DNA from: Deltaproteobacteria bacterium RBG_13_61_14
GTDB lineage: Bacteria; RBG-13-61-14
Direction: 5' to 3'
Length of the DNA: 8,604 nucleotides
NCBI GenBank assembly: GCA_001797815.1
Contig: MGQK01000101.1
Location: 1-8,604 of the forward strand
Of the stretch, positions 883 through 8,482 are shown in pieces. The notes under the pieces were generated by a model. The model made no database searches and was not told the origin of the DNA. It worked only from the letters and a program-made list of their open reading frames with translations. Within the stretch, counting starts at the first letter, position 1, and each line of letters opens with the position of its first letter. The position numbers were made by a program, and so were the translations under genes.

Positions 883-884
<2 letters not shown>
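853..884 (+). terminator. Possible weak terminator hairpins between convergent genes
   Basis: GCCGGC (853-858) and GCCGGC (864-869) can pair around the loop TAAGT, which contains the pbpC stop codon. An alternative hairpin pairs GCCGG (864-868) with TCGGC (876-880), including one G-U pair, and is followed directly by TTTT (881-884). The second form is the more terminator-like one for pbpC. The first could also form in the response-regulator transcript, downstream of its stop, but has no U-run on that strand. The stems are short, so this is a modest call. Confidence 0.35.
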
Positions 885-2253
<1,369 letters not shown>

Positions 2254-2325: not shown

Positions 2326-3951
2326 TTATCCCATCGGCTCCGGCAAATAGATGCGGAAGCTCGCGCCCTGGCCGGGCTCGCTTTGCACCTCGATCGCGCC
2401 ATGATGTTCCTCCACCACCCGCTTGACTATGCACAGGCCCAGGCCCACGCCGCCCCGCTTCCGGGTGAAGAACGGCTCGAACAGCCGCGCCCGCACCCCC
2501 GGCTCAAGGCCCGGCCCGTCGTCCGCGACCTCCAGCAAGATCCGGCCGGCTCCCCTCGTCGGCTGGCGTTCGCTTTTCACCCGGACCGTGCCTTTACCCC
2601 CGCACGCCTGGGCCGCGTTCAACAAGAGGTTGTAAAGCGCGCTTTCGAGCATGGCCGGATCGCCCAAGACCGTCAGCCCCTCAGGCAGGGAGAGCTCGAT
2701 CTTGAGCTCCGGGGTAAAGGCCGGGTTGAAGCGGAAGAGCGCCGCGGTCTGCTCGACCAGCCGGCGCAGGTTGACTTCCTCCCGCAGCGGGGCCGCGGGC
2801 CGGCTGAACTCCAAGAGGCTCTCCACCCGCTCGTCAATCTTCTTCACTTCCTCGGCGATGATAGCCAGGCCCTTGCGCATCAGCTCCGGGTCCGGAGGGT
2901 TTTTCATATCGGCCGAGAGGAACATCTGGGCGTAGCCTTTGATCGGGCCGAGGGGGTTGCGGATCTCGTGCGCGACCGCGGCGGCCATCTCGCCGAGCAC
3001 GGCCAGGCGCTCGACCTGCTGGAGGCGGAGCTGCATCTGTTCGAGCTCCTGCTCGTAGCGCTCGATCCTGCGGCGGTATTCGTATTTTTCCGGGAAGAAG
3101 GCGCGCTCGATGAAAGAGCGGACCTGGTCGCGGGCCGCGGCGATAAGCAGGGTGGAGAGCGCGGTGAGGGAGAGCACGATCAGGAACTGGGCGGGGGAGA
3201 AGTCCAGGCCGGGGATGCGGTCGAGGAGGAAGAGGAGGAGGGCGACGATGCCGCTGACCAGGACCAGGTAAGCGAGGTAGGCCATGCCTTCGTGGAGGAG
3301 TTCATCGGCCTGGACCCGGCCGGAGCGGAGGAAGGAATAGACGACCAGCTCGGCGCCTAAAACGACGGCCAGGCTGAGGTTGGAAGCCGGGAATTGGGGA
3401 AAGACCGGGTTCAAGGCGGCCTGGAGCAAGAGAGCCAGAAAAGGAAGGGCGGTCACCCAGAACTCGAACCGGACCTGGCGGAGCGGTTCCGGGTGCTCCG
3501 TTTTCCTGAGCAGATGGCGAAGGCCGAGGAAAAACGCCAGGTAGAAAAAGGCCAGATAGAGACCGACAACCGCCAGACCGATGATGTAGGCCTGGGATTC
3601 GGAGAGGCCGAGATTCTTCCAGGGGAAAATCCAGGCGGCAAAAGTGAAAGCGACCAGCAAGACCAAGACCGGCAGACGGCGGAAGCCGCGGCGAAGTTGG
3701 TAGCCTTCGGCCAGGTAATACTGATAGATGGCGGGGATGAGCAGGACGCCGAGCAGGGCCGACTTCAGCCAGGGGTCTTTGTCCGCGGACAAGAAGTAGC
3801 CGATGCCTACCGCGCACCAGATGCTGACCGCGAAACAAAGGGCGGAGAAAACCCGGGCCGAGACCTCGTGCCGGCGCCTTACCAGGACAAAGATGCCCAG
3901 GAGGAGGTTGATCTCCAGGGTCACCAGCAGGGGTATGAAGCGGAATTCCAT
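2326..3951 (-). CDS. Membrane sensor histidine kinase with N-terminal multi-TM sensor
   Basis: A 541-residue kinase. Roughly the first 275 residues are hydrophobic, with about eight or nine membrane segments (near 5-25, 33-54, 62-81, 93-110, 120-144, 165-182, 190-207, 224-243, 252-272). This resembles the 7TM-type sensor regions of some histidine kinases and leaves little room for a periplasmic domain. A short coiled linker rich in Glu, Gln and Arg (about 290-318) leads to the HisKA domain. The H-box is AHEIRNPLG with phospho-acceptor H328. The ATPase domain has N-box NLLLNAAQ (N445), G1 DDGPG (477-481), F-box FEPFF (491-495) and G2 GGVGLGL (500-506). No PAS, GAF or HAMP domain is evident. 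A TTG at 3975 is in frame, but it is part of the -12 box of the predicted sigma-54 promoter, so the ATG at 3951, preceded by GGCAGG, is preferred. The kinase probably phosphorylates the downstream regulator. PrsK-like kinases are comparable but normally carry a GAF domain, and no exosortase genes are seen here. Confidence 0.92.
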   Translation of the reverse strand: MEFRFIPLLVTLEINLLLGIFVLVRRRHEVSARVFSALCFAVSIWCAVGIGYFLSADKDPWLKSALLGVLLIPAIYQYYLAEGYQLRRGFRRLPVLVLLVAFTFAAWIFPWKNLGLSESQAYIIGLAVVGLYLAFFYLAFFLGLRHLLRKTEHPEPLRQVRFEFWVTALPFLALLLQAALNPVFPQFPASNLSLAVVLGAELVVYSFLRSGRVQADELLHEGMAYLAYLVLVSGIVALLLFLLDRIPGLDFSPAQFLIVLSLTALSTLLIAAARDQVRSFIERAFFPEKYEYRRRIERYEQELEQMQLRLQQVERLAVLGEMAAAVAHEIRNPLGPIKGYAQMFLSADMKNPPDPELMRKGLAIIAEEVKKIDERVESLLEFSRPAAPLREEVNLRRLVEQTAALFRFNPAFTPELKIELSLPEGLTVLGDPAMLESALYNLLLNAAQACGGKGTVRVKSERQPTRGAGRILLEVADDGPGLEPGVRARLFEPFFTRKRGGVGLGLCIVKRVVEEHHGAIEVQSEPGQGASFRIYLPEPMG

Positions 3952-3970: not shown

Positions 3971-3986
3971 AGCAATTTCGATGCCC
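3971..3986 (-). promoter_or_regulatory. Predicted sigma-54 promoter of the kinase-regulator operon
   Basis: Read on the minus strand, GGGCAT (3986-3981), N5, TTGCT (3975-3971) matches the sigma-54 consensus TGGCAC-N5-TTGCW. The GG and GC are exactly 10 bases apart. The predicted start is near 3960, which leaves a very short leader beginning at the GGCAGG ribosome site before the ATG at 3951. The boxes are the same GGCAT and TTGCT found upstream of the neighbouring protease gene. The first base of the -24 box is G rather than T. Confidence 0.6.
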
Positions 3987-4024: not shown

Positions 4025-4070
4025 TTGAAATATATTTATTTTGCGAACAAGAAATGGGCTGCGACAGAGT

Positions 4071-4107
4071 ATGTAAATTTTTACATATAATGAGATATTT
4101 TTACATA
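4071..4107. repeat. AT-rich palindrome and 11-bp direct repeat in kinase promoter region
   Basis: ATGTAAATTTTTACAT (4071-4086) is a palindrome with 7-bp arms and a TT centre. Its right part, ATTTTTACATA (4077-4087), recurs exactly at 4097-4107, a period of 20 bases or about two helical turns. The block sits between the predicted regulator dyad and the sigma-54 promoter of the kinase gene, within an intergenic stretch much richer in A and T than the genes around it. It may be an operator for another regulator or an intrinsically bent segment. No binding protein can be named. Confidence 0.45.
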
Positions 4108-4156: not shown

Positions 4157-4987
4157 TTAGCTGAATATGATGATGCCATAGAACAGGCCGATCAGGGCAT
4201 GCAGGATGGCCGGCGCGGCGATGCCCTCGGTATGATCTCGCACCCAGCCGAAGATCAATCCCTGCAGACCGGTGATCGCGGCCGCGTGCCCGGCGAAGGT
4301 GAAATGGGACCAGCCGTCTTTTTCGCCGAAGGGATTGAAAAAGCCGAGCCCGTGGCCGAAGCCGAAGAGCGCGGCGGAGAGGAAGAGTCCCCAGCCGATG
4401 CGGGTGCCGCGGATGGTCCAGGGCCGGCCGAAGGCGGCATTGAGCCGGCCCTGGATGTAGCCCCGGAACATGACCTCCTCGCCCAGCCCGCAGAACACTA
4501 CCTCGAAGACCAGGGTCAGCGCCACGCCGATCAGGGTGATCCAGGTTTCGTTGACCGGCCAGGTTTTCGCGAACCATGCATCCGGCAGGTTGAGGCTGAG
4601 CTGGTAGCCTCCTACCTGGAGCAGGGTCCCGGCCAGGACCAGCCAGACCGCGGCCAGGATGACCGAGGCCGCGATCGCGAGCTGGATCGCCTCCGGCTCC
4701 CGCAACTGGCGGAGGCTGATCCCGTAGTCGCGGAGCCGCTGCCGGCGGAGCTTGATTAAAGCGATGGGGACGACTGCCATCAGGGCATGGGCGAAGAAGT
4801 CCCAGCCCACCAGCCGAAACTGGATCAAGGGGATGGGAGTCAGCACCAGGGACTTGATCAGGAAATAGAAGGCGGGCACCAAGAGCGTGACTTCGGCCAC
4901 GGCCGTTAGTTGCCGCCAGGGGGATCCTCTGGTCCCTTTTGTTTCATTCGCCATTGCATCCGTAAGCTGAAGCAGAGCCTCTTTCAT
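4157..4987 (-). CDS. CPBP-family (CAAX-type) intramembrane metalloprotease
   Basis: A 276-residue multi-spanning membrane protein. It has the CPBP/Abi family signatures: EEVMFRG (E170, E171, R175; the EExxxR motif), FGFGH (F208, H212; the FxxxH motif) and a third motif HALIG (H263). Relatives are Rce1-type intramembrane glutamate/metal-dependent proteases acting within the cytoplasmic membrane. Bacterial members have varied and mostly unknown substrates, and some give immunity to peptide toxins. In the third motif the family usually has Asn four residues after His; here it is Gly267, so that motif is not fully canonical, though the two main catalytic motifs are intact. Hydrophobic stretches lie near 29-50, 62-80, 100-121, 148-166, 196-214, 233-248 and 257-275. 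The ATG is preceded by AAGGGG at good spacing; a second in-frame Met at residue 12 is less likely. A sigma-54 type promoter lies about 60 bases upstream, and the kinase operon follows 205 bases downstream on the same strand. Proteolytic activity is inferred from the motifs. Confidence 0.88.
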   Translation of the reverse strand: MKEALLQLTDAMANETKGTRGSPWRQLTAVAEVTLLVPAFYFLIKSLVLTPIPLIQFRLVGWDFFAHALMAVVPIALIKLRRQRLRDYGISLRQLREPEAIQLAIAASVILAAVWLVLAGTLLQVGGYQLSLNLPDAWFAKTWPVNETWITLIGVALTLVFEVVFCGLGEEVMFRGYIQGRLNAAFGRPWTIRGTRIGWGLFLSAALFGFGHGLGFFNPFGEKDGWSHFTFAGHAAAITGLQGLIFGWVRDHTEGIAAPAILHALIGLFYGIIIFS

Positions 4988-5046
4988 TTTCCACCCCTTC
5001 TTTAGATAGCGGGAAGTTTTCTCAAGTCCATTTGCCTCTTCAGTTT

Positions 5047-5062
5047 AGCAAGTGAGATGCCA
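5047..5062 (-). promoter_or_regulatory. Predicted sigma-54 promoter of the CPBP protease gene
   Basis: Read on the minus strand, TGGCAT (5062-5057), N5 (CTCAC), TTGCT (5051-5047) matches the sigma-54 consensus TGGCAC-N5-TTGCW at all but one position, with the invariant GG and GC 10 bases apart. The predicted start is near 5036, giving a leader of about 49 bases before the ATG at 4987. The element is intergenic and correctly oriented toward a gene beside a sigma-54 activator gene, which makes a chance match less likely. Confidence 0.7.
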
Positions 5063-5138
5063 AGCCAGTGAAATGACCTAATGCCCCGAGAATCCGGGCC
5101 TTTTTCCAGTCCGGGTGCCGCCGGCGCCTTCAAAGGAA

Positions 5139-5156: not shown

Positions 5157-5200
5157 GGTAGGCACTGCCGGACATAACAAGCCCTCTCTAGCCGAGAACC

Positions 5201-5220
5201 CGGGAAAAGGGACTTGCCCG
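5201..5220. promoter_or_regulatory. Putative activator-binding dyad 2 upstream of protease gene
   Basis: The half-sites CGGGAAA (5201-5207) and CTTGCCCG (5213-5220) repeat the GGGNAA/TTNCCC pattern of the dyad at 5139-5156, but with a spacer two bases longer. The two centres are 63 bases apart, close to six helical turns, which would put them on the same face of the DNA. NtrC-class proteins often bind paired sites as oligomers. The longer spacer makes this copy weaker than the other two. Confidence 0.35.
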
Positions 5221-5252
5221 CTTGCTCCGGGCAGAGCCTTTTCTCAGAAATC

Positions 5253-6439: not shown

Positions 6440-6534
6440 AAGATTTAAACACCAAGGCACAAAGACACGAATATAAATGATTTAAATTATGGTTTTTTAG
6501 CTTAGTGACTTTGTGTCTTGGTGGTAAAAATCTT
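6440..6534. repeat. Dispersed inverted repeat, copy 2
   Basis: CACCAAGGCACAAAGACAC (6450-6468) is complementary at 17 of 19 positions to GTGACTTTGTGTCTTGGTG (6505-6523). Pairing continues outward through AAGATTT (6440-6446) against AAATCTT (6528-6534). The 36-base AT-rich loop has no gene. The element fills almost the entire gap between the acyltransferase and glycosyltransferase genes. It shares GTGTCTTTGTGCCTT (in one arm) and the trailing TAAAAATCTT with the element at 7964-8120. It could act as a transcription barrier, though no function is shown. Confidence 0.8.
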
Positions 6535-7963: not shown

Positions 7964-8120
7964 GGATTTAACCACAAAGACACAAAGGCTCTAAGTCAGA
8001 ATGATTTCTTGCCGATTCGGCTGAAATTTTATTCGCAATCCAAGTTGACCTCTCGCGCCCGTGCTCAGTGGTCTCAACCCGTTTATTCTTGGTGTCTTTG
8101 TGCCTTTGTGGTTAAAAATC
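7964..8120. repeat. Dispersed inverted repeat, copy 3, with long loop
   Basis: AACCACAAAGACACAAAG (7970-7987) is complementary to CTTTGTGCCTTTGTGGTT (8096-8113) at 17 of 18 positions. The roughly 108-base interior contains no complete gene. The right arm shares GTGTCTTTGTGCCTT and TAAAAATCTT with the repeat at 6440-6534. The structure, with terminal inverted repeats and a noncoding core, resembles a small non-autonomous element, but no target-site duplication is evident. The arm is read as protein-coding by the minus-strand remnant that overlaps it. Confidence 0.75.
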
Positions 8121-8482
8121 TTTTTTCCAACTGCACGATTCGGGATTAAGGAATTGGGCGGGCTTTTCAAGCTGACCAACCGGCCCAGGAATAAGTTGAA
8201 GAAGCGGCCGGCGTCGAGGCGGAAGGGCGCACGGGTGAGCGAGCGGGGTTCGCGACCTGCGGTATCCGCCGAGTTCAGAGTCCGATTTTTTTCCATCCAG
8301 ACTTGCAAAACCTTGATTTCCGAGAACAGGGAGGGATCAATCAGGTAAGCGGCGGCGATGCCGTCCCAGGGGAAGAAGCCGCCAGCCGGGATCTCGGGGT
8401 ATCGGAGTCGGATGAGGCTGAAGATGAACCGTTGCCATCTGAGCCAGCGGCGGATGACGGGCAGGTAGCGGGCCAGGCAATT
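7991..8482 (-). pseudogene. C-terminal remnant of a probable inosine-uridine-type nucleoside hydrolase
   Basis: On the minus strand an open frame without a suitable start runs from the palindrome at 8483-8540 to the TAG at 7991-7993. Counting from the codon at 8482-8480, fragment residues 38-53 read PWDGIAAAYLIDPSLF and a later segment reads DAGRFFNLFLGRL. These resemble the end of nucleoside hydrolases, where a (H)D-AAAYLLDP-like segment carries a calcium-binding Asp and a late FFxLFLxRL helix closes the protein. Here Trp stands where many members have the catalytic His before that Asp. The N-terminal part, which would contain the DxDxxxDD substrate/metal motif, is missing: just upstream the frame meets the palindrome and then a stop. 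At its other end the frame runs through the arm of the repeat at 7964-8120, adding a tail of about 40 residues not expected in the family. I read it as a truncated, non-functional gene. Family recognition is from two motifs only. Confidence 0.55.

Follow-up and report, generated by a model that had tools for sequence, protein, structure and literature searches.

A probable sigma-54 promoter upstream of a CPBP protease gene, next to an NtrC-type two-component system, in Deltaproteobacteria bacterium RBG_13_61_14

Results

The window, meaning the whole stretch of DNA analysed here, is an entire contig of 8604 bases (C101) from a genome of 4.74 Mb in 132 contigs. Three of its genes follow one another on the minus strand in the order CPBP, kinase, regulator. 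The CPBP gene (4157-4987) encodes a CPBP/Rce1-like (type II CAAX) membrane protease of 276 aa, assigned by its match to Pfam PF02517 (55.1 bits against a cut-off of 22.4) and by its motifs: EEVMFR at residue 170 (EExxxR), FGFGH at residue 208 (FxxxH), and the final H, which lies within HALIG and not within HxxxN. The protein gave no meaningful sequence match to solved structures.

The CPBP gene is separated by 205 nt from a membrane histidine kinase gene (2326-3951, minus strand), with HisKA and HATPase_c domains (Pfam) and a HEIRNPL box. The N-terminal ~280 aa of the kinase are hydrophobic, with about 8 hydrophobic segments in the hydropathy profile, and this region matched no Pfam family and displayed weak relatives only. 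The regulator gene (883-2253, minus strand) encodes a receiver domain, an AAA+ domain, and a Fis-type helix-turn-helix (HTH_8), all found with Pfam, and contains a receiver aspartate and Walker motifs, with VILDLKLPG at residue 51, Walker A at 172, and GAFTGA at 219. A receiver, an AAA+ domain with GAFTGA, and a Fis-type HTH define an NtrC-type bEBP response regulator, and the protein matched the NtrC-family structure 4l4u with E = 2.5e-93.

No RNA family was found when the window was searched against Rfam. A stem-loop in the leader region of the divergent GNAT-type acetyltransferase gene (AAAAGG..TGCCCG-N7-CGGGCA..CCTTTT, 5206-5242) resembles a terminator on both strands, although its position coincides with no gene end. 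The intergenic stretches 6449-6530 and 7968-8125 hold inverted and repeated copies of 'accaca/gacacaaaggc' and its complement, and resemble a dispersed repeat that forms hairpins.

Upstream of the CPBP gene lies the -24/-12 element TGGCATCTCACTTGCT (5047-5062, minus strand). The original prediction described it as TGGCAT-N5-TTGCT with a single mismatch to the consensus and exact GG-N10-GC spacing, and the sequence read from 5062 to 5047 bears this out: one position departs from TGGCAC-N5-TTGCW (C to T), and two depart from the longer consensus in the literature, YTGGCACG-N4-TTGCW (the C to T and a G to C; PMC2725144). It was also said to be intergenic with a plausible leader, which agrees with its place between the CPBP gene (ATG at 4987, minus strand) and the GNAT-type gene (5316, plus strand). 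Standard sigma-54 geometry would put the transcription start at 5036, 12 nt downstream of the -12 C, giving a predicted leader of 49 nt with the Shine-Dalgarno-like GAAGGGGTGG (4991-5000, minus strand) ahead of the ATG.

A second sigma-54 element, GGCATCGAAATTGCT (3971-3985, minus strand), was retrieved both by pattern match and as the top score of the window, and lies directly upstream of the kinase gene. The kinase leader from this element would be only 9 nt, with a predicted start at about 3960. Neither this element nor the adjacent NtrC-type activator was part of the original prediction, and together they supply a likely mechanism. The genome encodes RpoN (Sigma54_AID, E = 1.9e-16, in a 478-aa frame). 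We also scanned both intergenic regions, upstream of CPBP and upstream of the kinase, and no sigma-70-type site was found on their minus strand.

At the genome level, TGGCAYN5TTGCW had 13 perfect matches in 4.74 Mb, TGGCATCTCACTTGCT among them, and the reversed pattern had 1. The looser GGCAYN5TTGCW had 34 matches (33 distinct), with 3 for its reversed control. Reversed patterns were dropped as sole control, since at spacer 5 they are misleadingly low (3, where the two other pairs of spacers gave 22 and 56). When GGCAY and TTGCW were set at wrong spacers, N3 and N4 gave 45 matches (17 and 28 distinct) and N6 and N7 gave 61 (20 and 41 distinct). With wrong-spacer counts this similar, the looser-pattern count proves little alone; raw counts were therefore dropped as evidence and the sites were classified by position.

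For this position test, the flanks of the control hits were retrieved and all sites were classed with a simple home-made gene finder that applies the codon usage learned from this genome. Outside predicted genes lay 29 of the 33 distinct N5 sites, vs. 25 of the 106 at wrong spacers (3, 4, 6, and 7; Fisher p = 4e-11). The same was true of all distinct TGGCA-type sites at N5 (12/12), vs. 7/12 at wrong spacers. For TGGCAY-TTGCT, 11 sites outside genes at N5 compared with 2 over the four wrong spacers combined, so we estimate a false rate of about 5% for this form. Intergenic position, and not count, was thus decisive in telling true from chance sites.

The GGCAT form occurs in 19 of the 29 intergenic N5 sites and is the commonest -24 form in this genome, so the T of TGGCATCTCACTTGCT is no defect but the local norm. 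Nineteen of the 29 sites also have a predicted same-strand gene start at most 300 nt downstream, which is absent for the other 10. The genes that follow other N5 sites include glutamine synthetase (glnA), type IV pilin (pilA), two NtrC-type regulators, a Cache-type histidine kinase, two sigma-70-family sigma factors, and thioredoxin-like [2Fe-2S] (NuoE-type, hydrogenase-type) subunit(s). Hydrogenase-type subunits are counted among the classical sigma-54 targets. So are glutamine synthetase, pilin, and NtrC-linked genes, as described in Geobacter (PMC2725144).

Some of these sites deserve separate mention. Those before the sigma-70-family genes (locus L023, 1501-1515; locus L012, 1501-1516) lie 33-35 nt upstream of one factor of the region 2/3/4 type and one of ECF-like type, which suggests sigma-factor cascades. 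Two promoter copies 5.4 kb apart (L009 and L010, both 1501-1516; G000 C99:35291 and C99:40738) are identical and are followed by the same sequence for 120 nt or more; a receiver-domain gene follows at least the first copy (L009), and the pair suggests that a sigma-54 locus was duplicated recently. An additional intergenic sigma-54-like site, GATCCTGGCAAATTTCTTGCA (L083, 2605-2631), scored 17.8 bits with the matrix described below; since it falls outside the search pattern, the regulon exceeds 29 sites.

The scoring matrix has 27 columns and was trained on 27 intergenic sites of the same genome, with the window's own sites excluded. The CPBP site scored 21.5 bits and GGCATCGAAATTGCT 23.9-24.0 bits, and no other position in the window rises above 9 bits; each of the two precedes one neighbouring transcription unit, on the strand of that unit. 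The original prediction had proposed looking for equally good scores at coding positions, and none appeared: the best position within any predicted gene reached 14.1 bits among 0.94 million positions on both strands of 480 kb of loci, a background picked by site hits and not a random sample. Altogether, the gap between 21.5 and at most 14.1 bits, the intergenic placement of every distinct TGGCA-type N5 site, and an encoded RpoN justify calling the element a strong candidate, and a genuine sigma-54 (RpoN) promoter almost certainly lies in the DNA preceding the CPBP gene.

Three other CPBP genes are present in the genome, and their examined flanks lack a comparable site, so it belongs to this locus and not to CPBP genes generally. 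Among the three genomes of the phylum that were compared, this one included, neither relative has an orthologue of the CPBP protein. Its nearest homologue (33%) is in G001 in a different gene context, and an own-genome copy on contig C17 looks like the counterpart of that homologue. The CPBP-kinase gene pair was seen in no relative examined; on the named relatives' contigs the CPBP scan was empty and the kinase scan gave the conserved kinase core only.

Upstream of each promoter there are repeats that could serve as enhancer sites. On the kinase side, the inverted repeat TATGTAAA-NN-TTTACATA (4070-4087) is a candidate activator site that precedes the promoter by about 85 nt. It is the sole perfect copy in the genome, but since a dyad of equal arm length arises in 5.6% of shuffles, it is suggestive only. 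A repeated half-site, ATTTTTACATA (4097-4107), lies 20 nt from its copy within the inverted repeat, and an 11-nt exact repeat of this kind appeared in 2 of 100 shuffles. On the CPBP side, CCCGGATTCTCGG (5086-5098, minus strand) and CCCGGGTTCTCGG (5192-5204, minus strand) are the two copies of a 13-nt direct repeat, a weak enhancer candidate with equivalents in 6 of 100 shuffles. The CPBP-side repeats and the dyad are within reach of chance. The kinase-side inverted repeat is absent upstream of CPBP, and no convincing binding motif common to the two upstream regions was found.

Discussion

We consider it likely that the CPBP gene has a functional sigma-54 promoter, whose opening most likely depends on the neighbouring two-component system, which would also regulate itself. 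RNA polymerase with RpoN would wait at the CPBP promoter as a closed complex. The adjacent membrane histidine kinase would phosphorylate the NtrC-type regulator, encoded two genes downstream of CPBP, and we infer that the phosphorylated regulator most likely opens the CPBP promoter. The same regulator would probably drive its own kinase-regulator operon from the promoter at 3971-3985. In Desulfovibrio, targets were found for 21 regulators, of which 8 bound in front of their own gene or operon and 7 in front of neighbouring operons (PMC3333781).

The regulator that opens the CPBP promoter could also be another one, because the genome holds about 30 matches to this kinase query and several other NtrC-type regulators. 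The promoter would then be a true one activated by a bEBP encoded elsewhere, with the adjacent regulator serving its own operon or other genes only. Besides the number of such regulators, this is consistent with the failure to find the kinase-side inverted repeat before CPBP, and with Geobacter, where EBPs are not always adjacent to their targets (PMC2725144). However, the adjacency, the matching strand, and the paired promoters point to the neighbour, as does the binding of own or adjacent operons by 15 of the 21 mapped Desulfovibrio regulators (PMC3333781), and we regard an activator from elsewhere as rather unlikely. Less probable still is a single transcript that starts at the CPBP promoter and covers all three genes, in which case the element at 3971-3985 would be incidental. 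The three genes do share a strand, the 205-nt gap has no terminator clearly above chance on the minus strand, and the second element implies an unusually short leader; against this, the gap is long for co-transcribed genes and the supposedly incidental element scores highest in the window. A shared CPBP-driven transcript and a separate promoter at 3971-3985 are compatible and could both be true.

A chance match, with a housekeeping promoter transcribing CPBP and an inert sigma-54-like element, seems very improbable to us. The loose-pattern counts were no higher than the wrong-spacer counts, and each wrong spacer has about 6 intergenic matches, which suggests a false rate of roughly 20% for the loose pattern. 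For TGGCAY-TTGCT, the form present here, that rate is near 5% even before the leader length and the neighbouring activator are weighed, and neither intergenic region offers a sigma-70-type site on the minus strand for a housekeeping promoter.

The arrangement resembles known systems. In the QseE/QseF-glmY system of Escherichia coli, a sigma-54 target also lies directly upstream of an operon for a membrane kinase and an NtrC-type regulator (PMC6075780). The E. coli target is a small RNA that carries TGT-N12-ACA enhancer sites (PMC6075780), whereas at the present locus the target is a CPBP protease gene, sites of that type were not recognised, and the operon lacks a QseG-like gene. The PrsK/PrsR system, which controls PEP-CTERM genes, likewise combines a membrane histidine kinase, an NtrC-type regulator, and sigma-54 promoters, and is tied to cell-surface protein sorting (PMC1569441). 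It differs in that the promoter here controls a CPBP protease and the window has no EpsH/exosortase gene. Identity with PrsK/PrsR was rejected, both NCBIfam matches being far below their equivalog cut-offs (kinase to TIGR02916, 113.9 vs. 300 bits; regulator to TIGR02915, 370.1 vs. 502.6 bits).

The RpoN regulon of Geobacter sulfurreducens is alike in having TTGGCAC-type promoters before glnA, pilA, and flagellar genes, and some activators that adjoin their targets, but its -24 form is GGCAC whereas GGCAT is the commonest here; the main text of that paper mentions no CAAX or protease gene (PMC2725144). The CPBP protein has weak similarity to the Mrt core models of myxosortases, which are CPBP-type sorting proteases; a myxosortase identity was rejected, with all Mrt hits far below their cut-offs (Mrt_core, 64.7 vs. 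100 bits). By title or abstract, no open-access paper was found about sigma-54/RpoN control of a CPBP/CAAX protease, which is weak evidence of absence.

Sigma-54 promoters beside NtrC-type two-component systems are well known, and the regulator mechanism proposed here is standard; the target is slightly unusual. To our knowledge, neither a trigger nor a substrate is usually known for CPBP proteases, and this locus offers a testable regulator-target pair for one of them. The locus may represent a dedicated sigma-54 circuit: its membrane-sensing two-component system would activate both itself and the neighbouring CPBP intramembrane protease, and the protease would be its main output in a response of the membrane or cell envelope; we put this forward tentatively, at somewhat less than even chances. 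The two sites of the window, together with the genome-wide set, provide a usable sigma-54 promoter model for a thinly sampled phylum, in which three genomes were compared.
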